The notes beneath the pieces are model-generated. The model worked only from the letters and a program-made list of their open reading frames with translations, did no database searches and was not told where the DNA came from. A DNA stretch of 26,634 nucleotides from a virus, in IMG/VR virus record IMGVR_UViG_3300046385_000099, positions 1-26,634 of that record, one strand, 5' to 3'. Made by a program: the position numbers and the translations under genes. Shown piece by piece: positions 3,619 to 26,634 of the stretch; the first letter of the stretch is position 1, and the number at the start of each line of letters is the position of its first letter.

Positions 3619-3630
3619 TAAGGCAAAGAG

Positions 3631-13041: not shown

Positions 13042-14115
13042 ATGGCATACGAAGTAAACAAAGCAAACGGCGAAGTGTTAGTTAACCTAATTGACGGGGA
13101 AATTGACAACACCTCTACCAGTTTAAATTTATTGGGCAAGAACTATCTTGGTTACGGCGAATTGATTGCAGAAAACTTTGTTCACTTGCTAGAAAACTTT
13201 GCAAGTAGCATTGAGCCAATTAGCCCGGTAAGTGGTCAACAATGGTTCGACACTGGCGAGTTGCGTTTAAAGTTAAACACAGATAACTCAAACTGGAAGA
13301 CACTTGCATTCTTGGCTGCACAAAACAGCTCACCAGCAGCAAGCAATTCAATTAGAGGCGACATTTGGTATGATACTGCCAATAATGCCGTTAAGATTTA
13401 CACAACCGACACAACATTACCAGGTACAAATGGCAACGGTTGGATGAATATTGGCGCATTCCAAGGCACACGCGACACTGCAACTGGTATGACATTCTTA
13501 GATCTGTTGGACACCAATCGTACCTTGCACAAAGTAGTTGCGCTGTATGCCTCAGGTGTATGCGTTATGATTATTAGTTCTGACGCCGACTTTACCATTG
13601 CCGAATCACATGCAGTACCGGGCTTTGCTGAGATTGGCAAAGGCATCAACATGAATACCAGTGGCCGCGATTCAACTGGATTTGATACAAACGCATTCAA
13701 GTTACGCGGTATTTCTATGGAAGCTGAATTTGCCGACGTTGCAGAGATTTATGTAAGTGATGCAGCATACGAGCCAGGTACATTGGTATCGCTGGGTGGC
13801 GACAAAGAAGTCACGCAAACAACTACCGCCGGTGACACAAACATTTTTGGTATTGTTTCAACTCGCCCAGCTTACTTGATGAATGCAAAACAAAAACGCG
13901 AAAAGAACGCATTGCCAATTGCAGTTGCTGGCCGCATTCCAGTTAAAGTAACTGGCATAGTCAAGCGCGGCGACCGCTTGGTATCAAGCGATATTCCAGG
14001 TGTTGCACGAGTTGCCACACAACAAGATCCAGCCTGGAGTATTGTTGGCCGTAGTTTGGGCGAGTTTAGCGGAGAAGGCATTGGCAAAGTCGAAGCCACA
14101 GTTGGAGCACGATAA
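13042..14115 (+). CDS. tail-fibre-type virion protein
   Basis: This is a 357-aa protein. Its N-terminal region has the GYGELIAENFVHLLENFA pattern followed by two copies of a short unit (GQQWFDT with LRLK, and GDIWYDT with VKIY), as found in repeat-bearing tail fibres of T4-like marine phages. The C-terminal part (about residues 225-357) reads as a separate beta-rich domain: FADVAEIYVSD, PGTLVSLGG, then IAVAGRIPVKVTG. This resembles the head of peptidase-G2/intramolecular-chaperone-type fibre ends, but I see no certain autocleavage motif. The stop shares its last A with the next start (TAATG at 14113-14117), so the two products are probably made together. Likely role: receptor-contacting or fibre-attachment protein in the virion. 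Confidence 0.72.
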   Translation: MAYEVNKANGEVLVNLIDGEIDNTSTSLNLLGKNYLGYGELIAENFVHLLENFASSIEPISPVSGQQWFDTGELRLKLNTDNSNWKTLAFLAAQNSSPAASNSIRGDIWYDTANNAVKIYTTDTTLPGTNGNGWMNIGAFQGTRDTATGMTFLDLLDTNRTLHKVVALYASGVCVMIISSDADFTIAESHAVPGFAEIGKGINMNTSGRDSTGFDTNAFKLRGISMEAEFADVAEIYVSDAAYEPGTLVSLGGDKEVTQTTTAGDTNIFGIVSTRPAYLMNAKQKREKNALPIAVAGRIPVKVTGIVKRGDRLVSSDIPGVARVATQQDPAWSIVGRSLGEFSGEGIGKVEATVGAR

Positions 14116-15086
14116 TGGCTATTCAGCGTAAAAAGATTACCGCTGAAGACCTAAACACGTTGGCATCCGACGTTAATGAATTGTTTGGCGACACTCATGC
14201 AGGCCAGGGTCCTTCAACTGACTTGCAAACTCAAGACGACATTCGTTGGGGCTGGGGCGGAGACAATGTTGAATATGTTCAGCCAAAGCAAAAGCTGACA
14301 GCGGCTTTTACAAATGAATTGGTTAATCGTATTAACCTAAGCACCTACAGAACAAATAGCACTGATCAGGAGCTTGTTATTGTTGCCCAAGGTGAAAAAG
14401 TAACAGCAGAATTTTTTAACACCGCAGCAAGTTTGTTAGATTCGGCACGCAATTCTCGTAACAAAGTTGATCCGGCACTAACAACTTTAACAACAATCAA
14501 AACAGTTACAAGCACAGTTGATAATTGGAACAACCAGTTAGAAAACGCAGTCCAGTTTAACTTTACTGGTTACGAAAGTGCTCGTCACTTTTTCAATGCT
14601 GGAGGTGACATTCGTTTAGTGTTTTCCATCACAGACGGTGCAGGCGCCGGATACAACACATGGGGCGGCATCTTTTTGGACCAGGGTACCCTGAGACTAA
14701 ACGTTGACACAATGGCCAGCTTAAACAACCGTGGCGTCAGTCAAGATGTTGGTTTTGCTGAACTTGCACTTAGTGAACAACTACTATACACTAGCCCATC
14801 TGGAGGCAGTAGCGGTTATGGCGGTTATGGGGGCTACGGCGGTTATGGGGGCTACGGCGGTTATGGCGGTTACGCTTCTAGTCGCGCTAAAATCTATGGC
14901 AGCATTGTTGGTGGTAATCTGCAATTGCGCACACTATTGGACCACGCAGGTCTAGGGACCAAAGTAACAGGTACAATCACCATGGTAGTATCTGTTTCTC
15001 ATCCATCTACTGTTACTGAAAATGGTGTAACACTGAGCCTTCCGACTCCTACGGCAACTATACATACGCCTTGGCAAGAAATCTAA
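14115..15086 (+). CDS. virion/tail-fibre-associated protein with Gly-Gly-Tyr repeat loop
   Basis: This is a 323-aa protein. It starts with a helical-looking N-terminus (RKKITAEDLNTLASDVNELFG), contains the short motif IRWGWGGDN, a middle beta-rich region, and at about residues 234-253 a run of one GY and six GGY units flanked by Ser. The fold family is not recognised. The repeat sits in an otherwise ordered-looking sequence and probably forms an exposed glycine-rich loop. Glycine-rich loops are known in receptor-binding adhesins of T-even phages (gp38), so a receptor-contact role is plausible but inferred. It overlaps the fibre gene before it by one base. The next gap (15087-15147) holds a promoter-like box and no other gene. 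Confidence 0.65.
   Translation: MAIQRKKITAEDLNTLASDVNELFGDTHAGQGPSTDLQTQDDIRWGWGGDNVEYVQPKQKLTAAFTNELVNRINLSTYRTNSTDQELVIVAQGEKVTAEFFNTAASLLDSARNSRNKVDPALTTLTTIKTVTSTVDNWNNQLENAVQFNFTGYESARHFFNAGGDIRLVFSITDGAGAGYNTWGGIFLDQGTLRLNVDTMASLNNRGVSQDVGFAELALSEQLLYTSPSGGSSGYGGYGGYGGYGGYGGYGGYASSRAKIYGSIVGGNLQLRTLLDHAGLGTKVTGTITMVVSVSHPSTVTENGVTLSLPTPTATIHTPWQEI
14814..14873 (+). repeat. in-frame 9-nt (GGY) repeat with 18-nt higher-order unit
   Basis: The tract encodes GY followed by six GGY triplets. Codon choice alternates (GGC GGT TAT then GGG GGC TAC), and that 18-nt unit occurs twice in a row, which points to recent duplication by slippage or unequal recombination. The copy number is therefore likely to vary between related phages while keeping the frame. 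Confidence 0.9.
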
Positions 15087-15111
15087 TTGGTTAAACCAGA
15101 GTTTGTACGCT

Positions 15112-15119
15112 GGTAAATA
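15112..15119 (+). promoter_or_regulatory. late-promoter-like box GGTAAATA
   Basis: GGTAAATA is identical to the box at 100-107 and lies in the 61-nt gap between the GGY-repeat gene and the 114-aa gene. T4-like spacing would start the transcript near 15125, about 23 nt before the ATG at 15148. The leader has only a weak TGGA as a ribosome-binding site. It would be the last box before the accessory cassette and could drive all of it. Confidence 0.4.
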
Positions 15120-15147
15120 ACAGCATACATAATAATTCTGGAACCAA

Positions 15148-15492
15148 ATGGATAAACGCCTAACCGATGCATTGGCATTTGCCAATTATAGATTAACACT
15201 GCAAGTTCAGAGACAAAATATTGACGCACGAGTTCAAGCGGCATTGTTGGTGTCTTATCAGAATGCAATTTTTAAAACTTCACAAGAACTAATTGGATTT
15301 GTGGGCCTTAAAACCATGCGTTCAGACCGATTACTTGTAGAAGATAACAGCGGCAACGTTATCCAAATTGAAAATCCAAATGAGTTCTTGACTATTCTAA
15401 TCAATGTATATGACGCAGCAATGGAATTAAAGCAGCAAGAACTTCAAAAATTAAAGTCAGCAAGAAGCACGGCTAAAATTGTAGGGCTGTAA
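15148..15492 (+). CDS. small conserved T4-like phage protein, function unknown
   Basis: This 114-aa, mostly helical protein has a long central sequence ELIGFVGLKTMRSDRLLVEDN and a charged helical C-terminus (MELKQQELQKLKSAR). Proteins of this shape and size occur near structural genes in T4-like phages of marine bacteria, but I cannot name a function. There is no signal peptide, membrane segment or catalytic motif. It stops one base before the ATG of the first glycosyltransferase-like gene, so it belongs to the same transcript as the cassette behind it. Confidence 0.6.
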   Translation: MDKRLTDALAFANYRLTLQVQRQNIDARVQAALLVSYQNAIFKTSQELIGFVGLKTMRSDRLLVEDNSGNVIQIENPNEFLTILINVYDAAMELKQQELQKLKSARSTAKIVGL

Positions 15493-15493
15493 T

Positions 15494-16372
15494 ATGAGCA
15501 GTCGTGGCTTCATGATGTTCGCTTACAACAACGAACAGTTAGACTACACTCAGTTAGCTCTTGTTGCTGCCTATGCATGCAAGAAATACATGCCTGACAT
15601 TCCAGTTGTACTTGTTACCAATCAGCAAAGTCTAGAACAGTGTAAAGAAACTCATGGTACAGCGCTAATGAACGCAGCCTGGGACAATATTATTGTTACC
15701 AATCCAGCGTACGAACGTAATATGCGTCTTCATCACGATGGTGCATATCACAGCTTCAACGCACAGTTTACAAACACCAACAAGCACGACATTTACAACC
15801 TAAGTCCATTTGATGAAACTATTCTAATTGACACCGATTACCTGTGTGGCAACAACAACTTGGAAAAGTTATTTGGTGGACAACATGATGTTGCAATGTA
15901 TCGTGACGCCCGTAACTTGCAAATGCAAGAACCATACACCACAGAACGTTGGTTACATCATGCTGGTATTCGCATGTGGTGGAGTACAGTAGTGTATTGG
16001 CGCAAGAGCGAAGAAGCCGCGCACTTCTTTAACATTTGGACAGCAGTTAAAAATAACTGGGAGTACTATCGCTTCTTGTACAAGTTTCCAGGTACATTAT
16101 ATCGCACCGACTACTCGGCAAGTATTGCAGCCCACATGTGCAACGGTTGGCAAGATGGTGGCTTCATTGGCGAAATTCCCAACTATATGCGCTACCAAGA
16201 TCAGCGCGACGATATTGTAGAAGTCAAAGGAGCAAACCATTGGGTCATGTTAAGCAACTTGCCCGAAGAGTGGAAAAACATTGTGGTTGAAGTTGCTGGC
16301 GAAGATGTTCACATGATGAACAAGAAAAGTATCCTTCGAAACTACAAACAGATTATGAAAGCGCTTGCATGA
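15494..16372 (+). CDS. glycosyltransferase, GT-A fold, GT8-like
   Basis: This 292-aa cytoplasmic enzyme probably transfers a sugar from a nucleotide-sugar donor. The N-terminus has the expected strand-helix start (GFMMFAYNNEQLDYTQLALVAAYACKK), then IPVVLVTN, and the metal-binding DxD at D113-T-D115 inside ETILIDTDYL, the layout of GT-A/GT8-type glycosyltransferases. A Trp/His-rich acceptor-side region follows (WLHHAGIRMWWSTVVYW, about residues 153-169). Donor and acceptor are not predictable. It is the first enzyme of the accessory cassette and overlaps the next gene as ATGA at 16369-16372. No membrane segment is seen, so the product probably acts on soluble or virion-bound acceptors, or on carrier-linked sugars at the inner face of the membrane. 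Confidence 0.75.
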   Translation: MSSRGFMMFAYNNEQLDYTQLALVAAYACKKYMPDIPVVLVTNQQSLEQCKETHGTALMNAAWDNIIVTNPAYERNMRLHHDGAYHSFNAQFTNTNKHDIYNLSPFDETILIDTDYLCGNNNLEKLFGGQHDVAMYRDARNLQMQEPYTTERWLHHAGIRMWWSTVVYWRKSEEAAHFFNIWTAVKNNWEYYRFLYKFPGTLYRTDYSASIAAHMCNGWQDGGFIGEIPNYMRYQDQRDDIVEVKGANHWVMLSNLPEEWKNIVVEVAGEDVHMMNKKSILRNYKQIMKALA

Positions 16373-17073
16373 CACTACATATCATTGCCCCGCCTAATTC
16401 TGATGAGCATGTCAGCATTACTGCAATGGATGCAAAGTATGTTGATGTAGCTGTGGAAATCAACGTGGTCCACGTTGACTTGGACCCGTATAGTCAGATC
16501 AAGCAGCTTGCATCGCTAGAACTCAAAGCCGGAGATATTATTTGTTTGGCAGGCGCCTGCCCAAGACAAACAACTGCGCCAATGGCGGAAATTGCCGCAA
16601 CTAAAAAAGTAAATCTCATGCCCGGCACAGGTGTTGATCACCGCGGTGTGCCAATTGGCACACATAAGATTAATAGTCGCGCCCCAATTGAAAAGAATAA
16701 TATGACCGCTTGGCCATATGTAATGGTCGTTGGTGATCCAGAATTGGCAACAAAAAGTTTTAAGCTATTACCTGACTTGGATCCTGCATTATATTGGGCC
16801 AACTATGTCCCTGCACCCAACGATTTAAAAATAGAACACTTGCTGGCAATATTACCTGCGACAGGATTGTGGGAATCACCAGACTGGTTTAAAGTAGTTG
16901 ATCTAAGCATACGCAACTTGGAACTTGCGCCCGTCATGTACGCAAGTCATATGTGGCACGATTGGATTGCATTTTATCCTGCGAATGGAAATTTCAAATT
17001 AGAAAATCATTCGCAGTTATGTCCAGTTTGGTTAGCCGGTAGTACAAAACCATTGGAATATTGGAAACAATGA
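16369..17073 (+). CDS. unknown cassette protein, 234 aa
   Basis: I do not recognise this protein. The N-terminal half has alternating beta/alpha character (LHIIAPP, VDVAVEINVVHVDLD, LKAGDIICLAGACP). The C-terminal half is rich in aromatic residues and Pro, with MYASHMWHDWIAFYPANG (residues 191-208). No established catalytic motif is evident, although the KAGDIICLAG segment could be the start of a Rossmann-like sheet. Start and stop are both ATGA overlaps with flanking genes (16369-16372 and 17070-17073), so it is made stoichiometrically with the glycosyltransferase before it and the unknown gene after it, and probably works in the same pathway. Confidence 0.6.
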   Translation: MTLHIIAPPNSDEHVSITAMDAKYVDVAVEINVVHVDLDPYSQIKQLASLELKAGDIICLAGACPRQTTAPMAEIAATKKVNLMPGTGVDHRGVPIGTHKINSRAPIEKNNMTAWPYVMVVGDPELATKSFKLLPDLDPALYWANYVPAPNDLKIEHLLAILPATGLWESPDWFKVVDLSIRNLELAPVMYASHMWHDWIAFYPANGNFKLENHSQLCPVWLAGSTKPLEYWKQ

Positions 17074-18065
17074 GCGAGTTAAAGTTTGAACTACGTCGCC
17101 GCGAGAAAAAAAAGTCAGAATTTTGGTGCGTATTTTATGACGAACATTCGGGCAGGATCAAATCCATTGAACCAGGTCAGCAACAAGTAGCAGGTGCATT
17201 AGTAGTTGATTATGCCCGCGTTAAGAAAATTCTAGCAGGCGAGATTAATCAAAACGATTACCGTGTAGCACTCAACGAAAATCTAGGTGTATTAGACTTG
17301 GTTGATATCAAGAAGCCTACAGAGTACAAAAAGAAACAAGTGTACCAAAGTTGGCTATCGGCAGCCGAAACAGATACGTATGCAGCTGAACCTTTGCGAG
17401 CATCATTGTTTGTGGACACCGGGCACATAAGGTTCGAAGCAAGCCGTATTTGGACCACTAAAATCAAAGAAGGCATTGACCGCAACTCAATTGACGATTC
17501 AATACCATTTTTTATTTCTGACGTAGAAGACCCACACAACTTGTTTGGCAATGACAAAATTAATCTGGCCGAAATAGTCGAACGTGGCTTTTGGGAAAAA
17601 CGTTTATGGTCATTTATGGACCATGAGATCATACAAAAAATATTGTATCACAATCAAGAAATTCGTATCAACATGTCACCAGTTGCCAGCGGCCTTAACT
17701 TTGTAAGAATACGCCAACACTCGCCGTTTTTGGAAATCAATGATGAACGAACTATTCTAAGCAAACCAGGTCCTGGCAAGCATTTAAGTGTATTTGCACG
17801 GGATGGATCATTATGGGCACAAAGTCATTATCAAAAGGGCTGTGCTATTGATCAACTAACTGGAAATTTATCAGTGGCAATATTATCTCAGCCTGACCCT
17901 GACTTCTTTGTCAGCTGGGCAGAGTTGCCAGCACTGATGCTTAGACAAGAACATCCGTTTGAATTGATTTCAAATTGGCCAGACCATATGGTTCCTTGTT
18001 TGTTATATAAAGCTAACAACTTAGATATCGGAGTACTCAGTGAAAACACCAATTACAGAATTTGA
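17070..18065 (+). CDS. unknown cassette protein, 331 aa
   Basis: The start is taken at the ATG of the ATGA overlap (17070) rather than the in-frame TTG at 17061. The protein begins with a strongly basic stretch (FELRRREKKKSEFW) followed by CVFYDEHSGRI. The remainder is globular, with FFISDVEDPHNLFG in the middle and beta-rich segments towards the end. I recognise no enzyme motif or membrane segment. The basic N-terminus could bind nucleic acid, phosphate-rich surfaces or a partner. Its last 26 nt overlap the next gene, which starts at a GTG, so the two are tightly coupled. Confidence 0.6.
   Translation: MSELKFELRRREKKKSEFWCVFYDEHSGRIKSIEPGQQQVAGALVVDYARVKKILAGEINQNDYRVALNENLGVLDLVDIKKPTEYKKKQVYQSWLSAAETDTYAAEPLRASLFVDTGHIRFEASRIWTTKIKEGIDRNSIDDSIPFFISDVEDPHNLFGNDKINLAEIVERGFWEKRLWSFMDHEIIQKILYHNQEIRINMSPVASGLNFVRIRQHSPFLEINDERTILSKPGPGKHLSVFARDGSLWAQSHYQKGCAIDQLTGNLSVAILSQPDPDFFVSWAELPALMLRQEHPFELISNWPDHMVPCLLYKANNLDIGVLSENTNYRI
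18030..18033 (+). promoter_or_regulatory. Shine-Dalgarno GGAG supporting a GTG start
   Basis: GGAG sits inside the end of the previous coding sequence, 6 nt before the GTG at 18040. It supports that GTG as the true start, since no ATG in the correct frame lies nearby. Confidence 0.6.
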
Positions 18066-19011
18066 CGTAGTCTTTATCAGCTATGATGAACCAAATGCAG
18101 ATGAAAACTATGCAGACCTACTAGAAAAGTGCCCATGGGCCAAGCGCAGTCATGGAGTGTATGGTAGCGATGCTTGCCACAAAGCAGCAGCCAAGCTAGC
18201 TGAAACCGAACGCTTTATCACAATTGATGCAGACAACAAAGTTCGCCCTGACTTCTTTGAAATGGAACTTGACTTGACCAAGTTTGATCGCAGTGACGTA
18301 CTAAGCTGGTCGGGCAAAAACGTTATCAATGGTTTGGTATATGGCAATGGTGGTGTTAAGCTATGGCCCAAGAAAGTTGTAGAACAAATGCGTACACACG
18401 AAGCAGTTGATTCTGGCGCAGGCGCAGTTGACTTTTGTTGGGACATTCACTATCATCAACTAAACAACATCTATTCAGATGTGTATAACAATTCTACCCC
18501 ATATCAATCATACCGCGCCGGGTTTCGAGAAGGTGTTAAACTTGCATTAACAGACGGTAAGCCAATGGACTGGCGACAAATTGCTGCCCGCAACAACTTT
18601 AAAAATCATCGCAGACTATTAGTTTGGATGAGCGTTGGCCAAGATGTACAAAACGGATTGTGGGCCATGTATGGCGCACGTCTAGGTTGCTACTTAACTA
18701 ACCTTCGCAGTGACTGGGACTATAAATTGGTAGCAGACTTCGAGTGGCACAATCAATATTGGTCTGACACAGTGGTGCCTATGTTTGCCGGCAACGAAGA
18801 ACAGTGCCCTGTTACCAAATACTCTTGGAGTAAAACAAAGCTAATGGCAGAGACTGTCAAGTTAGGCCGTGTATTGCGACAGGACTTGCAGTTAGACATT
18901 GCTGAGTTAGACGAAGCTGGTAGTAAATTCTTTAAAGCAAGTTTCTTTAATCCACATCGACTAGCACCTCACATCAAAGAAAGCGATGTTGACCAGTTTA
19001 TTGCTGAATAA
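18040..19011 (+). CDS. glycosyltransferase-like protein (GT-A), tandem paralogue 1
   Basis: This 323-aa protein has a GT-A-type N-terminus: VVFISYDEPNADENY at the first strand, CPWAKR, the conserved HKAAAKLAETERF (H47) and the metal-binding D63-A-D65 in FITIDADNKVRPDFF. A second conserved block is NGLVYGNGGVKLWPKK (about residues 97-112), followed by RLLVWMSVGQDVQNGLWAMYGA. These blocks are all repeated in the next gene, showing an in-place duplication. It begins with GTG inside the previous gene and ends sharing an A with the next start (TAATG). Sugar donor and acceptor are unknown. A related class of putative glycosyltransferases is common in T4-like marine phages. Confidence 0.7.
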   Translation: MKTPITEFDVVFISYDEPNADENYADLLEKCPWAKRSHGVYGSDACHKAAAKLAETERFITIDADNKVRPDFFEMELDLTKFDRSDVLSWSGKNVINGLVYGNGGVKLWPKKVVEQMRTHEAVDSGAGAVDFCWDIHYHQLNNIYSDVYNNSTPYQSYRAGFREGVKLALTDGKPMDWRQIAARNNFKNHRRLLVWMSVGQDVQNGLWAMYGARLGCYLTNLRSDWDYKLVADFEWHNQYWSDTVVPMFAGNEEQCPVTKYSWSKTKLMAETVKLGRVLRQDLQLDIAELDEAGSKFFKASFFNPHRLAPHIKESDVDQFIAE

Positions 19012-19892
19012 TGCTTGACGTATTTTTTATTTCAATGGGCGAAGAAGGTAGTGAAGCCAATTGGCAACGACTGCTTTCTTTTGCACCAGGTGCCAAGCGG
19101 GTTGATAACGTTAAAGGCATATACAATGTACATAAAGCCTGTGCGCAGTTGAGTACAACTGAAAACTTTTATGTTGTAGATGCCGACGCTTGGGTCCTTG
19201 ACGGATTCAAGTTCCATTGGGAACCAGACGTTAACACATTACACTGGGATGTTCCTGAAACAGAATGTGTTATTGTGTGGCCGAGCCGTAATCCTGTTAA
19301 TGGATTGGAGTATGGTTACGGTGGCATTAAAATGTTTCCGCGAGTACCATTCTTAGAAAACAAGTCCTGGGACATTGATCTATCTACTACTATCAGTCGC
19401 GCCACAATTAGCAAAGAACAAGTCAGTTGCGAAACACGATTTAATGTTACACCAGAATCAGCATGGATTGGAGCGTTTCGTGAATGTGCTAAACTTTCAT
19501 CATTGTCAATGATTAAAAGTAGGGTGCGTAAAGCAATTAAAACTAGAAATGCAGAACTTGCAGAACTTACAGAACGTACAAACGTATTAACAGATAGGAT
19601 TCCCACGAATCATGCCATGTACCGTAAGATTCAAAGTATGCTTATCATTGACCGATACAAGCGCGAGTCAGACATTTATTCGTACTGGACAGAAATTGAA
19701 GAATGCAGCCACCGAAGATTACACTGGACCGCAGTCGGCTGGGAAGCCCCCAATGGAAAATATAGTGTACTTGGAGCGCAAGCTGGATCTAACTTTGGAT
19801 TGCAACATGCTGATGATTTAGCGATACTAGATAAAATCAATGATTGGGACTGGCTACGAGAGGAATTTAAAAATGTCAATGTTCAATGCTAA
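19011..19892 (+). CDS. glycosyltransferase-like protein (GT-A), tandem paralogue 2 with coiled-coil insert
   Basis: This 293-aa homologue of the gene before it has DVFFISMGEEGSEANWQRLL, PGAKR, HKACAQLSTTENF (H41), D57-A-D59 in YVVDADAW, NGLEYGYGGIKMFPR and RLHWTAVGWEAPNGKYSVLGA. It differs by a basic, heptad-like helical region at about residues 165-215 (RVRKAIKTRNAELAELTERT), which could mediate pairing with its paralogue. The DAD motif is intact, so both copies may be active and could form a heterodimer or act in sequence on one glycan. A strong GAGGA occurs near its end (19860-19864) and may serve the frame-ambiguous junction that follows. Confidence 0.68.
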   Translation: MLDVFFISMGEEGSEANWQRLLSFAPGAKRVDNVKGIYNVHKACAQLSTTENFYVVDADAWVLDGFKFHWEPDVNTLHWDVPETECVIVWPSRNPVNGLEYGYGGIKMFPRVPFLENKSWDIDLSTTISRATISKEQVSCETRFNVTPESAWIGAFRECAKLSSLSMIKSRVRKAIKTRNAELAELTERTNVLTDRIPTNHAMYRKIQSMLIIDRYKRESDIYSYWTEIEECSHRRLHWTAVGWEAPNGKYSVLGAQAGSNFGLQHADDLAILDKINDWDWLREEFKNVNVQC

Positions 19893-19944
19893 CCCAAAAA
19901 GCAGAATTCCTAGTACTGTACAACGATGCAGAGTGGCACACTAA
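19873..19944 (+). other. 23-codon small open frame with good Shine-Dalgarno (doubtful gene)
   Basis: This short frame, MSMFNANPKSR..., starts 8 nt behind GAGGA (19860-19864), overlaps the end of the glycosyltransferase paralogue, and stops at TAA 19942-19944. It may be a tiny coupled peptide, a decayed start of the following gene, or chance. It competes with the frame at 19886-19975 in the same interval. Confidence 0.2.
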
Positions 19945-19975
19945 TTTAAGTTTATATGGATGGTTCCGTGGATAA
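19886..19975 (+). other. 29-codon open frame overlapping two genes; possible frameshifted N-terminus
   Basis: The ATG at 19886 overlaps the preceding stop (ATGCTAA), the typical junction style of this cassette. The frame encodes MLTQKAEFLVLYNDAEW... with protein-like composition and ends at TAA 19973-19975, inside the next coding sequence. The next gene continues in the +1 frame. A single-base change or a +1 ribosomal shift near GGA-TAA would fuse the two into one protein of about 415 residues. Alternatively it is an independent small coupled gene. Confidence 0.35.
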
Positions 19976-21125
19976 AAATACTGAGTTGAGATCATCGTTA
20001 TTATACTTTGTCGATGAAGCAATTGGCTATAGACACAGCTTGCACTTCTTTCATCGTTGGTTAGAAACTGGCAAACAATCCGAATTAGAAGGATTGATAA
20101 TTGAAGTTGGTCGAGAAAACTTTGTTGACTTGCACTCAATTATAAACACAATTAAAGATCCAGAATGTCATGCTGGATTTGGGGTCATTGACGACATTGC
20201 ACGCATCAAAGGCCTACACGTACCCACTGAGTGGGTCAATGGCAACGAAGTAAAATTAACTCCACTAACAGTAGCAAACCCAAATCATCCTACGCTATTT
20301 GAGTTGTGCAATTGGACAAACGATAATGCAACCAAGATAGCCAATCCTGCTGCGGTCATTTGCAAAGCACACAGTTTATTACATGAGTCTCGCACTAACT
20401 TTTATAAAGTGTTTAACTTAATGGAAGTGCTATTTGGGCTTAACACAATCTTTTCATGTGTCATTGACAGCAACATCAATCGTACAGGCCAGGCCATAAG
20501 CCATTACTATCCAACGCAAGCTGACTATATTACTCGTCTTGCCAGCACAATATCTAACAACCCAGACTTAAATTGGAAAGACGCACTGAGTCGCAACCAG
20601 GTCAAAAGCAAGTTGTGGCTGATTGATCGGCTAAACAAACTAGAAGTATTTGCCAAAAAGCAAAGCATCAATGATGCGGAAACAACTACATTGGTAGTTG
20701 GCGGCTGGGTAGGTATGATTCCTTTCTTGGCAAGTATGAGCCAACTGAATCTTGGCAACGTAATCAACATTGATATTGACACCAGTGTGCATTCAGCAGC
20801 ACATGAACTTAATACCAACACACACAGCAATTTTAAAAATTCTGGTACTGATGTAAGAGAGGTCGATCTTACAAAATACAAGAATCCATTAGTCATTGAC
20901 ACGATTGTTGAGCACTTTGAGAATCACGGCAAGTGGGTCAAAACACTGCCCAAAGGAACCACAGTGGTACTACAAGGAAATGACATGTTTAACGTACCTG
21001 ACCATGTCAACTGCCATACAACATTAGAAGACTTTATTGGGTCATGCGGGTTAAATAACATTATCTGGGCTGGGGAACTCAATCTCCATATGTGTACCAG
21101 GTATATGGCCATTGGTACTACATGA
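19956..21125 (+). CDS. SAM-dependent methyltransferase-like protein
   Basis: This protein has 389 aa from the ATG at 19956; a GTG at 19968 is also possible, and neither has a clear ribosome-binding site. The C-terminal half looks like a class I Rossmann methyltransferase: a TTLVVGGWVGMIPF glycine loop at about residues 244-257, an acidic strand end NIDID at 271-275, a later DTIVEHFE segment, and a LPKGTTVVLQGNDM strand. The N-terminal 230 residues are helical and not recognised. The reaction is inferred from fold only, since the loop is not the standard GxGxG. It overlaps the dioxygenase-like gene as ATGA at 21122-21125. Its own 5' end is unclear, because a protein-like 29-codon frame feeds into it out of register. 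Confidence 0.55.
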   Translation: MDGSVDKNTELRSSLLYFVDEAIGYRHSLHFFHRWLETGKQSELEGLIIEVGRENFVDLHSIINTIKDPECHAGFGVIDDIARIKGLHVPTEWVNGNEVKLTPLTVANPNHPTLFELCNWTNDNATKIANPAAVICKAHSLLHESRTNFYKVFNLMEVLFGLNTIFSCVIDSNINRTGQAISHYYPTQADYITRLASTISNNPDLNWKDALSRNQVKSKLWLIDRLNKLEVFAKKQSINDAETTTLVVGGWVGMIPFLASMSQLNLGNVINIDIDTSVHSAAHELNTNTHSNFKNSGTDVREVDLTKYKNPLVIDTIVEHFENHGKWVKTLPKGTTVVLQGNDMFNVPDHVNCHTTLEDFIGSCGLNNIIWAGELNLHMCTRYMAIGTT

Positions 21126-21424
21126 ACGTTGATAAACGATTTAAACGATACAATAATTTTAAAGTATACCGTGCAAGATTATTAACAATGCATCCTCGAA
21201 CTGGTTATAGTATACACATTGATCAGACTCCTTGTATACATATTGCAATCAACACGCATCGACAAGCACGATTTATTTTTACTAATCCTCCAGCGTTGCG
21301 CCATATTCCAGCTGACGGACATGTTTGGTGGGTTGACACACGCCAAGAACATTCGGCAATGAATGGTAGTTTAGAGCCACGCATTCACTTTGTTGCTTGC
21401 CTGGATAACACAGACTCAGATTAA
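21122..21424 (+). CDS. aspartyl/asparaginyl beta-hydroxylase-like 2-oxoglutarate/Fe(II) dioxygenase
   Basis: This 100-aa protein matches the core of the Asp/Asn beta-hydroxylase family, enzymes that use Fe(II), O2 and 2-oxoglutarate to hydroxylate aspartyl or asparaginyl side chains or related small molecules. The facial triad is visible as H32-x-D34 in GYSIHIDQTP and H77 in RQEHSAMNGS, and R87 in PRIHFVACLD is the expected 2-oxoglutarate salt-bridge residue. The spacing fits a double-stranded beta-helix with very little extra sequence, making it a minimal member. I chose the ATG in the ATGA overlap at 21122 over the in-frame GTG at 21092. Position next to the PP-loop and GNAT-like genes suggests that it tailors the same product. 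Confidence 0.75.
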   Translation: MNVDKRFKRYNNFKVYRARLLTMHPRTGYSIHIDQTPCIHIAINTHRQARFIFTNPPALRHIPADGHVWWVDTRQEHSAMNGSLEPRIHFVACLDNTDSD

Positions 21425-21439
21425 GTCATACATAAAGGT

Positions 21440-22054
21440 ATGACATTAGAAGTTATTCATACCTGCGCCGACGACTTTGGTAGCGTAGTATCTCTGTACC
21501 AAGATTTCTTAACAGAAATTGCAAAAGATCCTCTACCAGCAATGGTTAACATGGGGTATGACTTGCCTGCAGGGTTGGGCCACCTGGTTACAAATCGTTC
21601 ACGTTGGACCCGTGACACGGGCCGCATTGACTTATTACTTGACAGTGGACGCATTGTTGGAGTTAGTGCAGTAGAAACAAGTTCACTTTCGAGCGCATTT
21701 GGCAACGGCGGCAATCGTTGCTGGTTACTGCCAAAATATCGTGTTCATAATGAAATTACAAAGTATTTGCTAGCATCAAATTTACAATGGTGCACGGAAC
21801 AACAGCATGCGGGAATGATACTGACATTTAACGACTACAACAAATGGATCTATACCACAATCAAAAAACGCACCACAGGCCAAGCTGGCGCACTTGGCCC
21901 AGTTTGGAGCAACTGGTGGAATGATTGTATTCCGTTTGAGCATCAATTGAATGTATTCAGTACTCCGCAATGGGCAGTAGTAAAACCCATTGCAAGTACA
22001 GATGTTGTACTAGACGGAATGAATAACATTGACAGAGAATTTAGAATAACATGA
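21440..22054 (+). CDS. GNAT-like acyltransferase, copy 1
   Basis: This is a 204-aa protein. A glycine-bearing core strand (IDLLLDSGRIVGVSAVETS, about residues 63-81) and a following WLLPKYRVHNEITKYLLASNLQWC helix region suggest the GCN5-related N-acetyltransferase (GNAT) fold. The acetyl-CoA loop is degenerate, so this is a fold-level guess. The start has AAAGG only 1 nt upstream of the ATG, which is too close for normal use, while the stop overlaps the PP-loop gene as ATGA at 22051-22054. Together with the gene at 22983 it brackets the PP-loop enzyme, a layout that suggests one pathway with activation and acyl-transfer steps. Confidence 0.5.
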   Translation: MTLEVIHTCADDFGSVVSLYQDFLTEIAKDPLPAMVNMGYDLPAGLGHLVTNRSRWTRDTGRIDLLLDSGRIVGVSAVETSSLSSAFGNGGNRCWLLPKYRVHNEITKYLLASNLQWCTEQQHAGMILTFNDYNKWIYTTIKKRTTGQAGALGPVWSNWWNDCIPFEHQLNVFSTPQWAVVKPIASTDVVLDGMNNIDREFRIT

Positions 22055-22998
22055 TTGTAAACACAGAAAATAGTCACCTGGTGTATTGGTACAACGACAA
22101 CAAGTCTAGTATCTGGAGAACCGACGATTTTGATACCACTTCAATGAGTGTGGGAGGATGTACCAGAAAGCCAATGAAACTCCAAGCAGAACTAATCAGA
22201 AATGCTCGTTCATTGATTAGACAATATCCTGATTTGACTATTTTTATGAGTGGTGGATTAGACAGTGAAATGGCACTACGTTCTTTTCTTGCTGCTGGTA
22301 TTACTCCTAAACTGGTTACTGTAAGATTCCCCCACGACAACAACATACACGACATTGGTCCAATGATCACAATGCTAAACAGCATGGGTTTGGAATATTC
22401 CATTATTGACATTGATCCCGACGCATTTTATTACTCAGGGGAATGGAAAGAAATTGCAGTAAAGTACCAAGCCTATACATTTTATCAACAAATGTTATTA
22501 AAAATTGCAGAGCAATACAATGCTCCAATGATCACAGTAGACGAAGTTGAGCTTGAAAATTTGCCAACTGTTGATTACGAAACCGGCCAGTATAAGTTTA
22601 ATTGGTCTTTTTTGAAAAAAGAAGATCAAGACGGAGTGTGGCGCCGCTTTAACGAAAAGACTGGCATCCCTGCGTTAAATAATTTTTATACCTACAGTCC
22701 AGAATCTATTTTGGCATTTTTAAAAGAAGACACAGTTGCAAATCTCATAAGAGGTAATATTCCTTATAAGCTGTCATGGACTTCATCTAAGATGAAAATT
22801 TATGGATCGCTGGGATACAATTTTAGAAAGCGACCAAAGTGGCACGGTGTGGAAAATTACATGCACTTATGGGATATGGTAAACTATAATCTTGGCCAAA
22901 CTGGATTGCACTATAGTCCCAGGCACTATGCAGTACCTGCACTAGAACTAGAACATAATTTAGAAACAGGAAAACAAACACTATGTCAGACCGCATAA
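22051..22998 (+). CDS. PP-loop ATPase, asparagine-synthase-like, without amidotransferase domain
   Basis: This 315-aa protein has the N-type ATP pyrophosphatase signature S67-G-G-L-D-S72 in TIFMSGGLDSEMAL. Enzymes of this class adenylate a carboxylate or related group and release pyrophosphate before amide or similar bond formation (asparagine synthase, QueC and relatives). The N-terminal glutaminase domain of AsnB-type asparagine synthases is absent: only about 60 residues precede the loop. A VDEVELENLP segment follows at about residues 167-176, where asparagine synthases carry a GDE-type motif. It would therefore need free ammonia or an amine substrate. It overlaps both GNAT-like neighbours (4 nt upstream, 16 nt downstream). 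Confidence 0.72.
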   Translation: MIVNTENSHLVYWYNDNKSSIWRTDDFDTTSMSVGGCTRKPMKLQAELIRNARSLIRQYPDLTIFMSGGLDSEMALRSFLAAGITPKLVTVRFPHDNNIHDIGPMITMLNSMGLEYSIIDIDPDAFYYSGEWKEIAVKYQAYTFYQQMLLKIAEQYNAPMITVDEVELENLPTVDYETGQYKFNWSFLKKEDQDGVWRRFNEKTGIPALNNFYTYSPESILAFLKEDTVANLIRGNIPYKLSWTSSKMKIYGSLGYNFRKRPKWHGVENYMHLWDMVNYNLGQTGLHYSPRHYAVPALELEHNLETGKQTLCQTA

Positions 22999-23621
22999 TC
23001 CCCCTTAACAGTACACATCTAACAGGACTAGTCAACTTTGCCGACGGCATTTACAAAAATGCTGACCCGGACAAATATCCAGATTTTCGCATTTCAGCGG
23101 ACATCGACGACCATGCCAAGCGAACTAAATTTTTTAGTGCATTTTTAGTCCCTAGTAGCTTCAACGATTATAATATCAGGCAAGCGTATGCATTTGTCAA
23201 TGATGACGGGGAGTATCAAGCCGCCGTAGGTGTACGCAGATGGGGTCATATGCCAAGTTGGAGTGTTGGTTGGTTATTGAGTCCAAGCCTTGGAGTACGT
23301 TTTATTCCAATGTTTAGAAAAATAATGGACGAGCTGTGCAAAATACACGAAGCCGCAGGCATGAATGAGTTTTATGTAACGTACCCAACAAGTCGCGAAG
23401 CAGCGTATAGTAAGATCATGCTGCCCTTTCGAGATCGCTACTACAGTTTTGTTGAATGTACGCTGCCAGCAAAAACAGTAAGTCCTTATGGATTTATTCA
23501 CTCGTTAATGGGATCAACAATTCACCCACATGATATGAATCTACGAAGATACATACTACGAAGAGAAAATACCGAGCCTGAAAGTCAAGGCGGCATTGTT
23601 AACAGAAAATTTAAAAAATGA
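22983..23621 (+). CDS. GNAT-like acyltransferase, copy 2
   Basis: This 212-aa protein has a GNAT-type layout: AAVGVRRWGHMPSWSVGWLL as the central strands, a helix MFRKIMDELCKIHEAAG, and FYVTYPTSREAAYSKIMLPF towards the end. The acetyl-CoA binding loop is not canonical, so the acyl donor is unknown. The C-terminal 30 residues are basic and Arg-rich. It starts 16 nt inside the PP-loop gene with AGGA upstream and ends as ATGA with the desaturase. It is comparable in size and position to the copy at 21440, but direct similarity between the two is weak by eye. Confidence 0.5.
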   Translation: MSDRIIPLNSTHLTGLVNFADGIYKNADPDKYPDFRISADIDDHAKRTKFFSAFLVPSSFNDYNIRQAYAFVNDDGEYQAAVGVRRWGHMPSWSVGWLLSPSLGVRFIPMFRKIMDELCKIHEAAGMNEFYVTYPTSREAAYSKIMLPFRDRYYSFVECTLPAKTVSPYGFIHSLMGSTIHPHDMNLRRYILRRENTEPESQGGIVNRKFKK

Positions 23622-24502
23622 AAAATTGGTTAAACAAACAAGTAGAGTTGTATCGTAAGACACACCAGATTCCGTACATATTAGCAGTATGGTTGCCTTA
23701 TCACGTGGCAGCAATTGCAGTAATTGCTTATACCATTGCAACAGGCTGGTCATGGAGCTATATGCTTCTTGCCGTTTGCGGCTGGGTATTGCTAGACGGT
23801 GTTGGCAATAACTTGACACTGCATCGTTGGTTAAGCCATAAAAGCTGGACTCCACATAAATGGGCAGAACCATTCTTATTATGGGCAAGTACCATGGTAG
23901 GAGAAGGTAGTCCGTTATGGTGGGTAGCACTACACCGCGGGCATCATCATCGAGTAAGTGACCAGCCAGGAGAAGACATTCATACTCCAGTTGGCAATGG
24001 ATGGTGGCATAGCTATATGGGTTGGCAGTTTGGCATCGACCAAAAATCAGTTGGCTTTCGTTACGCAGTTGACTTGCTAAGAGATCGTCGTGTTACATTT
24101 ATTCATGAAAACTACAACAAAATCATCTATGGCACATTGCTGTTGAGTGCATTCTTGTTTGGATGGCAAGCTACCGTTTGGTTCTTTGTCGTTGGTGCGT
24201 TAATGAGCTTGCATGCAGACGGTCTAGTAAACACATTCGGGCACGTACCTGGCGCTGGCTACCAAAACTTCAACAACAAAGATGCAAGTACTAACGTATG
24301 GGCAATTGGATACTTTCACTGGGGGTCGGGTTGGCACAACAATCATCATGCCAAAGCAAGTTCATTTGATTTTGGTACTTCAGTGAGTGGTCGCCCCCAT
24401 GAATTTGATCCGTGCTTGGTTTTGGTGATTCCGTTTGCTCCGCTTTCGGAGACTAAACGCTTGTGGTTGTTACGTAAAGATGCTATACTAGCTAAACAAT
24501 AA
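23618..24502 (+). CDS. membrane fatty-acid (acyl-lipid/acyl-CoA delta-9-type) desaturase
   Basis: This 294-aa integral membrane di-iron enzyme introduces a double bond into acyl chains. All three histidine boxes are intact: H69-RWLS-H74, H106-RG-H109-H110 and H240-NN-H243-H244, with NTFGH (H209) before the third, as in delta-9 type desaturases. Hydrophobic segments at about residues 20-42, 45-66 and 167-198 fit the expected hairpin topology, and the length is normal for the family. It needs host ferredoxin or another electron donor. It overlaps the preceding GNAT-like gene as ATGA. Lipid desaturases have been described in marine cyanophages. Here the gene closes a cassette of transferases, so it could act on general membrane lipids or on a lipid made by the cassette. 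Confidence 0.9.
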   Translation: MKNWLNKQVELYRKTHQIPYILAVWLPYHVAAIAVIAYTIATGWSWSYMLLAVCGWVLLDGVGNNLTLHRWLSHKSWTPHKWAEPFLLWASTMVGEGSPLWWVALHRGHHHRVSDQPGEDIHTPVGNGWWHSYMGWQFGIDQKSVGFRYAVDLLRDRRVTFIHENYNKIIYGTLLLSAFLFGWQATVWFFVVGALMSLHADGLVNTFGHVPGAGYQNFNNKDASTNVWAIGYFHWGSGWHNNHHAKASSFDFGTSVSGRPHEFDPCLVLVIPFAPLSETKRLWLLRKDAILAKQ

Positions 24503-24505
24503 GGA
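24501..24505 (+). promoter_or_regulatory. Shine-Dalgarno AAGGA of the thyX remnant
   Basis: AAGGA overlaps the desaturase stop and lies 5 nt before the ATG at 24511. It is a functional-looking ribosome-binding site that now serves only an 18-codon frame, which supports the view that a full gene once started here. Confidence 0.7.
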
Positions 24506-24510
24506 ACAAC

Positions 24511-24567
24511 ATGACAGTACGACTTTTATCTTTCTCACAACCGACGGCAGAATTTAAAAATAAGTAA
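24511..24567 (+). pseudogene. 5' remnant of a second thyX (18 codons)
   Basis: With a strong AAGGA upstream, this frame encodes MTVRLLSFSQPTAEFKNK and stops. It aligns without gaps to the first 18 residues of the intact ThyX at 25341 (MKVELVSHSAPSTEMVGN), with identity at M1, V3, L5, S7, S9, P11 and E14. The resemblance to other phage ThyX N-termini is also good. The simplest reading is that thyX once followed the desaturase directly and was interrupted near codon 17 when the HNH gene arrived together with another thyX 5' end. It may still be translated as a short peptide. Confidence 0.75.
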
Positions 24568-24590
24568 CCTGCTGTAGTTTCAATCTCAAT

Positions 24591-24598
24591 CATAAATA
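24591..24598 (+). promoter_or_regulatory. late-promoter-like box CATAAATA
   Basis: CATAAATA matches seven of eight positions of the T4 late consensus TATAAATA and ends exactly 5 nt before the ATG of the HNH gene. With T4 spacing the transcript would begin at the A of that ATG. A late promoter belonging to a homing endonuclease gene has precedent in T4 (I-TevI). No ribosome-binding site lies between box and ATG. Confidence 0.6.
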
Positions 24599-24603
24599 CT
24601 TTT

Positions 24604-25344
24604 ATGAAAAAGAGAATAAATTACAGACGAATATGGGTAGCTTATCATGGCAAAATTCCCAAGGATATAGACGGGCGATCGTTTGACATACATCACTTAG
24701 ATGGTAATAGTGATAACAATAGCATTGGCAATTTAATAGCTATATCAGCATACGAACATTATTGCATACATAGAGATAAAGGCGAGTTTGGCGCTGCTGC
24801 AATGATTGCTAGACGAATGAAAACTAAGCCTAGCGACTTGTCCGAAACTGTTAAATTGCAAATGAAAAAGTTAATCGAATCGGGCCAACATAATTTCTCG
24901 GTTAAAGGATTTGTTAGTGTCAGGGATAAAGATGGTAATAATATGCGAGTAAGTAAAGACGACCTGAGATTTATCTCAGGTGAGTTAGTTGGAGTTAACA
25001 CTGGATTTGTTACTGTTAAGGATAAAGATGGTAATAATATGCGAGTTAGCAAAAACGACGATCGTCTTAAAACAGGTGAGTTAGTTGGAGTTAATACTGG
25101 ATTTGTTACTGTTAAGGATAAAGATAGTAATAGTATGCGAGTAAGTAAAGATGACCTGAGATTTATCTCAGGTGAATTAAAAAGTATCAATTGTGGGAAA
25201 ATTGGATATAACCTTGGTCGAACCTGGACCCAAACAAATAAGCGTCCGACTGTAAAATGTCCACACTGTGCTAAAGAAGGTGACATTAGCCCAATGAAAC
25301 AACATCATTTCGATAATTGTAAATATAAAATAGGAATAGTATGA
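24604..25344 (+). CDS. HNH homing endonuclease with three tandem repeats and C-terminal zinc-finger-like motif
   Basis: This is a 246-aa free-standing mobile endonuclease. The HNH core lies at residues 7-57: YRRIWVAYHG, then DIHHLDGNSDNNSIGNL (H30, H31, N38, N43) and a final YEHYCIH. Residues 102-196 are three copies of a 31-32-residue unit (GFVxVxDKDxNxMRVSK...SGEL), probably a modular DNA-contacting region like those of other phage homing enzymes. The C-terminus has C219-x2-C222 and H235-x3-C239, a zinc-finger-like end shared by many phage HNH and GIY-YIG endonucleases. It is visibly more AT-rich than its neighbours, has its own promoter-like box, no Shine-Dalgarno, and ends as ATGA with thyX. 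Expected role: cleave thyX in phages lacking it and spread by repair. Confidence 0.88.
   Translation: MKKRINYRRIWVAYHGKIPKDIDGRSFDIHHLDGNSDNNSIGNLIAISAYEHYCIHRDKGEFGAAAMIARRMKTKPSDLSETVKLQMKKLIESGQHNFSVKGFVSVRDKDGNNMRVSKDDLRFISGELVGVNTGFVTVKDKDGNNMRVSKNDDRLKTGELVGVNTGFVTVKDKDSNSMRVSKDDLRFISGELKSINCGKIGYNLGRTWTQTNKRPTVKCPHCAKEGDISPMKQHHFDNCKYKIGIV
24962..24981 (+). repeat. inverted repeat in HNH repeat unit 1
   Basis: ACCTGAG-ATTTAT-CTCAGGT is a perfect 7-bp stem, extendable to 9 bp through the loop edges. It encodes part of DDLRFISGE and is absent from unit 2. Confidence 0.8.
25154..25173 (+). repeat. inverted repeat in HNH repeat unit 3
   Basis: This is an exact copy of the 20-nt inverted repeat in unit 1, again with a 6-nt ATTTAT loop. 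It could fold in mRNA and slow translation of the endonuclease or protect the transcript, or simply reflect the duplicated coding unit. Confidence 0.8.
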
Positions 25345-26021
25345 AAGTAGAATTAGTATCGCATTCAGCCCCATCAACCGAGATGGTAGGAAACGGGATA
25401 ACCGACTTGCAGGAATTGGTGGCATTTTGTGCTCGAGTAAGCAATCCAGATAATCAGTATAATACTGAAACAAGTGAAAAACTGATTAATTACTTGATCA
25501 AACATAAACATTTTAGTCCACTTGAGATGGCTAGCGTATGCATGTCGATTGAGACCACCAGAGATATCGCCAGGCAGATCCTTCGCCACCGTAGTTTTTC
25601 ATTCCAAGAGTTTAGCCAACGTTATGCAGACCCTACCACGGACTTAGGCTTTGTTGTTAGAGACGCACGCCTACAGGACACAAAAAATCGTCAAAACAGT
25701 GTAGACTTAGACTTAACTGATGCTGATCAGCGTGAATTAAACAACTTGTGGATTGAAAAACAACAGGATGTTATTTGCCAAGCTAAACATGCGTATAACT
25801 GGGCAATTGCGAACGGAATTGCAAAAGAACAGGCCAGAGTTGTTCTGCCTGAGGGCAATACCGTCAGCCGTTTGTACATGAATGGTACGCTGAGAAGTTG
25901 GTGTCACTTCATTGAATTACGTAGTGCAAATGGTACACAGAAAGAGCATCAGTTAGTTGCCTTGGCCTGTGCAAAAGCTATTGCAGCCATTTACCCGACT
26001 GCTAACAACTTAATCTCCTAA
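25341..26021 (+). CDS. thyX: flavin-dependent thymidylate synthase ThyX
   Basis: This 226-aa enzyme makes dTMP from dUMP with methylene-tetrahydrofolate, FAD and NADPH, supporting phage DNA synthesis. The ThyX signature is seen as R82-HRSFSFQEFSQRY-Y95 (general form RHRxxSxNExSxR, with Q in place of N, as in other phage copies). CARVSNPDNQYNT near residue 30 and the C-terminal LPEGNTVSRLYMNGTLRSW and RSANGTQKEHQ also fit phage ThyX. The start overlaps the HNH stop (ATGA at 25341-25344) with AGGA upstream, so translation may now depend on the HNH transcript. The last 12 nt overlap the opposite-strand gene. A remnant of another thyX 5' end lies 830 nt upstream. Confidence 0.93.
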   Translation: MKVELVSHSAPSTEMVGNGITDLQELVAFCARVSNPDNQYNTETSEKLINYLIKHKHFSPLEMASVCMSIETTRDIARQILRHRSFSFQEFSQRYADPTTDLGFVVRDARLQDTKNRQNSVDLDLTDADQRELNNLWIEKQQDVICQAKHAYNWAIANGIAKEQARVVLPEGNTVSRLYMNGTLRSWCHFIELRSANGTQKEHQLVALACAKAIAAIYPTANNLIS

Positions 26022-26634
26022 CTCTTTTGTGGCAGTTAACGAACCATCTGCGTTCTGCCACAAAAATCCCCAAGCGTTATTATAACGTGTAATGGTCGGT
26101 AAGCTGGGCCATTTTGTTTTATACTTCAAGTATTTCTCATTTGGCCAAATATCATTGATCAGTTGTTTTGCTGGCAACTTGTATGTGTTCCATTTTCCGC
26201 CTACTTTAGCTTCGTTAGTATACAATGCCCACTGTTGATATTGTGTACTATCAAAGAAGTTTACAACATTGCCGGCCATGTATTCAGCTTGCTGTGCAGT
26301 TGGAGCATGCATTGCCATACGATACTTGACAGCTTGCCACTTCATTGCATAGTTTAACCACCATAGGAAATCGTGATTGGTGTTGATAGGAACTGGACTT
26401 GCTGCTACCAATGCTCGTAACATTTCCTCACGTTCTTCTCTGTACGGTTCTTTTTTGTTTAACAACCAAGGAAGCGTTTCAGTTTCCCAATCACCGTGAA
26501 TAGCATCAAAGTTATTTGAGTTATCCATGTAGCTTTTTAATGTCAAGCTACCAAACAAGTTATCGGCACATTCGCCAGTGACACACACATTCTTTGGATC
26601 CGTTACAATGTCATAAAACTGATTGCTTGGTAAT
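26010..26634 (-). CDS. asparagine-synthase-like protein, C-terminal part (5' end outside window)
   Basis: The frame is open from the right edge to TAA at 26012-26010 and gives 207 residues. Near the start of the visible part is VCVTGECADNLFGS, which corresponds to the TGEGADELFGGY motif of the asparagine synthase synthetase domain, preceded by QFYDIVTDP. The ATP pyrophosphatase SGGxDS loop would lie upstream, outside the window. An initiator GTG at 26588 is possible but would remove the start of this domain, so I treat the gene as 5'-truncated by the window. It runs opposite to everything else here and meets thyX tail-to-tail. In Glu-Cys-Ala the family's usual Glu-Gly-Ala is altered. It is a second member of the superfamily represented at 22051. 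Confidence 0.68.
   Translation of the reverse strand, partial: LPSNQFYDIVTDPKNVCVTGECADNLFGSLTLKSYMDNSNNFDAIHGDWETETLPWLLNKKEPYREEREEMLRALVAASPVPINTNHDFLWWLNYAMKWQAVKYRMAMHAPTAQQAEYMAGNVVNFFDSTQYQQWALYTNEAKVGGKWNTYKLPAKQLINDIWPNEKYLKYKTKWPSLPTITRYNNAWGFLWQNADGSLTATKELGD
26025..26065. repeat. inverted repeat at the convergent thyX / asparagine-synthase-like junction
   Basis: TTTTGTGGCAG (26025-26035) and CTGCCACAAAA (26055-26065) are perfect 11-bp arms around a 19-nt loop, just 4 nt after the thyX stop and inside the last codons of the minus-strand gene. The A/T ends of the arms resemble a bidirectional terminator, but no long T run follows on either strand. It may act as a 3'-end stabiliser or weak terminator for both transcripts. 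Confidence 0.45.

Follow-up and report, generated by a model that had tools for sequence, protein, structure and literature searches.

Phage manipulation of host lipids has so far been attributed mainly to desaturase genes proposed to act alone. A publication on viral desaturases (PMC7300359) proposes for such enzymes, among them the phage-encoded stearoyl-CoA-type vFAD, an action on host membranes. Phage GNATs are predicted to modify the host RNA polymerase (PMC7824862), and bacteria form and tailor aminolipids by the ornithine-lipid pathway (OlsB, OlsA, OlsC and OlsE; PMC11631085). The nearest cultured analogue of the locus described here is the region 54.7-68.3 kb of Pelagibacter phage Mosig EXVC030M (Kyanoviridae), where enzyme genes lie directly behind the tail-fibre genes. 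We analysed 26,634 nucleotides (nt) of the IMG/VR record IMGVR_UViG_3300046385_000099 (the window), from a giant phage not in culture, which contains at positions 15494-24502 a cassette of eleven genes, named c1 to c11. A first-pass annotation had read all eleven as one small biosynthetic pathway. In our view, to which we assign a probability of about 0.55, the cassette consists of two neighbouring functional units, of which unit B (c8-c11 and four genes further downstream) would be a phage operon for acyl-lipid tailoring or acyl-amide formation on the envelope lipids of the host. Unit A, made up of c1-c6 and in many cases also c7, is linked to the fibre genes; its position and weakly matching motifs make glycosylation or methylation of the phage fibres or of a surface glycan its probable role.

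The Mosig region resembles the cassette in having an Asp_Arg_Hydrox gene (PF05118), an N-acetyltransferase (GNAT), a methylase, TauD, FA_desaturase and a second Asp_Arg_Hydrox gene, with a c6-related methyltransferase further on. Unlike in the window, no PP-loop gene is annotated in this region and tblastn revealed no match to c9. The Mosig desaturase is shorter than c11 and about 30 % identical to it, the gene order differs, and aminotransferases and MoaA-like enzymes are added. This likeness points to the stretch after the fibre genes as a place where enzymes of these kinds recur. Fatty-acid desaturases of cyanophages were reportedly treated by Roitman et al. in 2018. The predicted c11 enzyme is of the stearoyl-CoA type like vFAD, but its gene shares an operon with those of PP-loop ligases, GNATs and a hydroxylase, whereas vFAD is proposed to act alone (PMC7300359). 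The ornithine-lipid pathway shares enzyme kinds with the cassette, namely a GNAT-type N-acyltransferase, a PF05118 hydroxylase, a PF04116-type hydroxylase and a methyltransferase. OlsC represents the PF05118 and OlsE the PF04116 class of hydroxylases, and both tailoring classes were present at the family level; unlike that pathway, unit B adds PP-loop ligases and a desaturase. An assignment to the known pathway was rejected, because the families of its defining acyltransferases, PF13444 (OlsB) and PF01553 (OlsA/PlsC), were each found in 0 of the 12 larger phage contigs examined for lipid families, contigs that may be fragments, and neither c8 nor c10 matched the OlsB family. By analogy, unit B may resemble aminolipid tailoring in its action and yet be distinct from the ornithine-lipid pathway.

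Related loci were collected by a scan for c9 (41 loci) and by c9 alignment (70 loci); a separate scan for fibre genes added further loci. Unit B comprises eight genes: c8, c9, c10, c11, a coiled-coil gene (coil), an asnB-like PP-loop gene, a gene resembling 2-oxoglutarate (2OG) oxygenases and a fatty-acid hydroxylase gene. A marker gene beyond thyX, coding for 99 amino acids (aa), delimited the stretch compared. In the window's clade, all eight genes were present wherever a locus extends over this whole stretch from c11 to the marker, barring L250 and L251. About 33 distinct contigs of the clade carried the full unit, which was present even where the hydroxylase gene is inverted. In L250 and L251, with both flanks visible, all eight genes were absent, while c1-c6 and a thyX were kept. 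The absences nest among carriers in the c4 tree, and at least two separate changes are needed to account for them. From co-inheritance and joint absence we conclude that c8-c11 belong to an eight-gene unit, that thyX is a bystander and that c1-c6 form a separate block. Most functional partners of c8-c11 (asnB-like, coil, 2OG-like and hydroxylase genes) are located outside 15494-24502, the range of the first-pass annotation.

The two blocks can be followed beyond the clade. The order c1-c11, kept in the window's clade wherever a contig reaches, persists in L053-L056 at 57 % c9 identity and, without c2, in L058-L064 at 46-48 %; c2 was not detected in the group of L059 and L063. At 42 % c9 identity (L065-L071, including one contig of 453 kb), c8-c9-c10-c11 occur without c1-c5 (L065, L066, L068, L070, L071), followed on the same strand by coil and then the asnB-like gene where the stretch reaches; these two genes follow c11 in L063 as well as in L065. 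The gene c8 is contiguous with c9-c11 in all groups but L069 (36 % c9 identity), which keeps PP-loop, GNAT and desaturase genes (c9-c10-c11), has a GNAT-looking open reading frame (ORF) in the place of c8, and also carries a coil-like ORF, an asnB-like gene and a fatty-acid hydroxylase. The converse arrangement, c1-c6 without c8-c11, was found in L250, L251, L252 and L255 (L255 from c2 on), where thyX follows either directly on c6 or on c7. The many T4-like phages with c1 or c4 relatives behind their fibres, obtained in the fibre-gene scan, had no c8-c10 match within the stretches compared. The blocks are therefore inherited separately. As a side observation, L069, an 80-kb phage contig, has an expanded PP-loop array at 2517-8921, in which three further c9-like genes and one more asnB-like gene adjoin a c7-like oxygenase.

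The first-pass identities of c9, c10 and c11 proved solid, that of c7 moderate, and those of c8, c6 and the glycosyltransferases weak. The predicted assignment of c11 to the stearoyl-CoA-type (delta-9) acyl desaturases is based on PF00487 (5.5e-13) and on a profile match to SCD1 (4.4e-18); HRxxSH, HRGxHH, NxxxH and HNNHH all align to SCD1, the second box being one residue longer. The protein c9 belongs to the PP-loop ATPase superfamily, with a conserved SGGxDS pyrophosphate loop, a predicted Rossmann-like core and a match to NH3-dependent NAD synthetase at 1.2e-5. Its AlphaFold2 model (predicted local distance difference test, pLDDT, 91) retrieved LarE, NMN synthetase, carbapenam synthetase and asparagine synthetase in Foldseek. 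For c10, the model (pLDDT 84) matched the GNAT 2vi7 at an E value of 3e-7 and a target template modelling (TM) score of 0.71, a solid prediction of the GNAT fold. The c8 profile matched the annotated N-acetyltransferase of Mosig weakly, at 17.5 bits; no Pfam match was found for c8, and a profile comparison of c8 with c10 detected no homology. None of c8-c10 matched the curated NCBIfam models, among which are those for exosortase-type amidotransferases and acyltransferases. The median ratio of nonsynonymous to synonymous substitution rates (dN/dS) was 0.04-0.08 for c8-c11.

Of the partners beyond c11, the asnB-like gene is complete in contig L002 (13960-15030, 356 aa), which belongs to the window's own phage. 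Its SGGxDS loop places the predicted protein in the PP-loop ATPase superfamily, and comparison with c9 revealed nothing in common except the PP-loop motif. Asparagine synthetase B was rejected as an identity: the PP-loop is preceded by about 95 residues, too few for the glutaminase domain. The fragment in the window had no Pfam match, including PF00733, and a chance-level NCBIfam match. The fatty-acid hydroxylase gene (FA_hydroxylase, 1e-12) lies in L002 1.6 kb past the window end. This family, PF04116, was found in 8 of the 12 larger contigs and an acyl carrier protein (ACP) in 3. Around unit B of L063 were genes for ACP, TauD, a PF05118 hydroxylase, a fatty-acid hydroxylase and a 4HBT thioesterase; a Rieske oxygenase gene stands beside unit B of L065. 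The SCD1-family desaturase, the fatty-acid hydroxylase and the ACP context bear out the acyl or lipid chemistry suggested at first reading and support acyl-chain chemistry as the predicted activity of unit B. In L063, the ACP gene (15719-15973, PF00550 3e-15) was located between the PF05118 hydroxylase and the 2OG-like gene, which a TauD gene adjoins.

For unit B we infer the following order of reactions, substrate, product and benefit. A PP-loop enzyme would convert a carboxylate to an adenylate, from which an amide would be formed, and a GNAT would transfer an acyl group to an amine. Desaturase and hydroxylase, two membrane di-iron enzymes, might then tailor the acyl chain or the head group together with 2OG oxygenases. 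The outcome would be a modified or new acyl-amide or amino-lipid in the envelope of the infected cell, and the benefit most likely altered membrane properties or the exclusion of rival phages. Several observations weigh against this proposal. Full joint absence was seen in two loci only, as the sequences of L252 and L255 do not extend to the second half of the unit, and the thyX of L250, L252 and L255 is of another type, which indicates that the locus was rearranged more widely there. The GNAT identity of c8 is weakly indicated, the fold resemblance of c9 is limited to the PP-loop core (whole-chain TM about 0.3), and the folds nearest to the c10 model belong to ordinary acetyltransferase GNATs and not to N-acyl amino-acid synthases. 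The 453-kb L065 contig yielded no fatty-acid hydroxylase, and 9 of the 12 contigs no ACP, though all are possibly fragments. A doubtful extension is that several jumbo-phage lineages encode a complete pathway to a phage-specific amide-linked, desaturated and hydroxylated lipid, with PP-loop ligases, acyltransferases and in some cases ACP of their own. A co-inherited and jointly lost set of eight genes for ligases, acyltransferases, a desaturase and a hydroxylase would imply that an entire lipid-modifying pathway operates in certain jumbo phages. The natural pair of presence and absence (L250 and L251 against close relatives) and Mosig in Pelagibacter HTCC1062 make the proposal testable.

The single pathway of the first-pass annotation, in which all eleven genes would build one decorated lipid or glycan, agrees with the order and strand kept for all of them in the clade and in L053-L056, and with the lack of a terminator-like site on the plus strand inside the cassette. 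It is nevertheless very unlikely: the blocks separate both ways (L250, L251, L252 and L255 against L065-L071), c1 and c4 relatives stand behind the fibres of many other phages, and a fourth glycosyltransferase-like gene, c4', was deleted in the window phage with unit B intact. Random combinations of the genes in relatives, which would have refuted the first-pass annotation, were not seen either; the synteny comparison showed two fixed blocks. An unlikely explanation, though one with published precedents, is that desaturase and hydroxylase adjust the fatty acids of the host for membrane fluidity and that the GNAT and PP-loop genes are unrelated, serving for instance the modification of host proteins. 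Viral desaturases with such a proposed role are published (PMC7300359), and the prediction that phage GNATs modify the host RNA polymerase (PMC7824862) would fit as well. Against it stand the constant linkage of c8-c9-c10-c11 in overlapping frames across phage groups and the joint loss of c8-c11 with the second PP-loop gene, which together argue for one function.

Modification of virion proteins or peptides, with the PP-loop enzyme and GNAT adding groups to the side chains of fibres, would account for the place of unit B behind fib1-fib3 in the window clade, for the Gly-Tyr repeat of fib3 and for the similar enzymes behind the Mosig fibres. This reading is even less probable than the single pathway, since unit B of L065 lies beside the terminase and other structural genes in a stretch without recognised relatives of c1-c5 or fib1-fib3, and it is hard to see what two membrane enzymes for acyl chains would do to proteins. 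The location after the fibre genes, from which virion decoration or remodelling of the host surface had been suggested at first, speaks for unit A as fibre- or surface-related and has little bearing on unit B. Hypermodification of DNA or nucleotides, prompted by the place of thyX among the unit B genes of the window clade, is hardly credible: L250 and L251 retain a thyX despite their lack of unit B, no thyX match occurs in the L065 stretch, and nucleotide chemistry offers no natural place for a membrane desaturase. As thyX behaves as a bystander, this reading was rejected, and acyl-lipid tailoring by unit B remains the preferred one.

Relatives of c1, c3 and c4 were located behind fibre genes in dozens of phages, those of c1 directly behind them in many. 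The gene c1 is present in every clade locus that reaches its position (80-93 % identity) and had no Pfam or PHROG match; its product is weakly indicated as a GT-A glycosyltransferase. The genes c4, c5 and c4' form one family, for which a GT-A identity is plausible: the DxD motif (D63, D65) is invariant in the 17 sequences aligned, and 3 of these gave a marginal Glycos_transf_2 match (E 0.005 at best). The c1, c4 and c5 proteins of the window had no Pfam match and c4 no PDB match. Weak relatives of c3 adjoin c4 relatives in other phages; in the window, an alternative ATG of c3 at 17070 overlaps the c2 stop. Nearly all relatives keep c4' as a gene of about 325 aa. In the window phage it was deleted, leaving a scar whose two ends equal the first and last codons of c4' in L017. 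The protein c6 is tentatively a methyltransferase, with conserved motifs VGGWVG and DTIVEHF and 26 % identity (E 2e-6) to the putative methyltransferase of Mosig. In the c7 family HxD...H and R are invariant and 16 of 17 members match PF05118 (best 7e-7), which gives moderate confidence in the predicted Asp/Asn-hydroxylase-like identity. The window copy matches at E 0.003, below the curated cut-off, and covers profile positions 74-151 of 157; its N-terminus is shortened in comparison to the ORFs of 171-186 aa in relatives. This copy may be impaired. The dN/dS of the c7 family (0.19) is the highest in the cassette.

Table 1 Coordinates and predicted assignments of cassette genes and neighbouring features in the window
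Feature	Position	Strand	Assignment	Length (aa)	Basis
c1	15494-16372	+	putative GT-A-like glycosyltransferase	292	DTD motif only
c2	16369-17073	+	no family assigned	234	conserved in the window's clade
c3	17061-18065	+	no family assigned	334	conserved in the window's clade
c4	18040-19011	+	putative GT-A-like glycosyltransferase	323	84-95 % identity across the clade
c5	19011-19892	+	paralogue of c4	293	aligns with the c4 family including DxD
c4' scar	19870-19977	+	scar of deleted fourth glycosyltransferase-like gene between c5 and c6		matches c4' ends
c6	19956-21125	+	methyltransferase-like C-terminal domain with N-terminal extension	389	Mosig match, motifs
c7	21092-21424	+	Asp/Asn-hydroxylase-like 2OG oxygenase	110	HxD...H, R; PF05118
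c8	21440-22054	+	GNAT-like	204	motif and weak profile match
c9	22051-22998	+	PP-loop ATPase, amide-ligase-like	315	SGGxDS loop, NAD synthetase match
c10	22983-23621	+	GNAT-fold transferase	212	AlphaFold2 and Foldseek
c11	23618-24502	+	membrane acyl desaturase	294	PF00487, SCD1 alignment
thyX	25341-26021	+	bystander inside unit B		PF02511 8e-43
asnB-like	26010-26634, off window end	-	second PP-loop gene, asparagine-synthetase-like		SGGIDS, TGExADNxFGS

Database searches gave few relatives. Pfam and PHROGs had almost no matches for c1-c6 and c8-c10, and tblastn of c1, c4, c9 and c10 against 50,697 phage records gave none, nor did divergent forms of c1, c4 and c9; by this search no phage isolate on record encodes a relative of these four. 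Mosig was the sole match for c6, and the fatty-acid hydroxylase of L063 had none in these records. The desaturase matched Mosig and two records named 'Acinetobacter phage MD-2021a', in which the genes nearby resemble those of a bacterial chromosome. One of these, CAKLQH020000002.1, carries trpB, btuB, baeS and acyl-CoA dehydrogenase genes around the desaturase and looks like a bacterial chromosome, not a phage. A pattern search for the c9 family in 84,980 genomes of bacteria and archaea gave matches, none confirmed as a relative. Desaturase relatives in bacterial genomes had 29-37 % identity and were spread over many phyla, thus giving no hint of the host. A search for pmoC, which would have pointed to a methanotroph as host, had no match, but the control genomes gave none either, which makes the result uninformative. 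Literature searches returned no description of this operon, in line with the first impression that this precise combination is not found in any named phage system; single phage fatty-acid desaturases are already known.

The cassette as a dense multi-enzyme array behind fibre genes was confirmed. All eleven ORFs are on the plus strand and tightly packed, with overlaps of 4 nt (c1/c2, c8/c9, c10/c11), 1 nt (c4/c5), 13 nt (c2/c3), 16 nt (c9/c10), 26 nt (c3/c4) and 34 nt (c6/c7), and the only gaps are those of c5/c6 (63 nt) and c7/c8 (15 nt). No terminator-like site was found on the plus strand in 15000-26634. All eleven genes recur in this order in the loci long enough to show it, and the median dN/dS per gene of 0.03-0.19 indicates strong purifying selection; conserved order and selection together place the cassette far beyond chance. 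Upstream are T4-type baseplate and fibre genes (fib1-fib3), and the baseplate wedge protein shares 35 % identity with its counterpart in PA5oct-like jumbo phages. Downstream of c11 come the gene of an HNH endonuclease, then thyX and finally a gene in convergent orientation that runs off the window end. In the window's clade thyX sits between unit B genes; a thyX of different type occupies the same place in L250, L252 and L255, apparently exchanged along with the loss of c8-c11. Of all loci compared, the window's own phage alone has the HNH gene (24604-25344), which contains an internal repeat, at this position between desaturase and thyX. The L002 sequence is identical to the window except for fib3: the gene at 14115-15083, alone in differing (95 %), encodes a protein of the fibre region whose GGYGGYGGY repeat could be a target of modification or a flexible linker.

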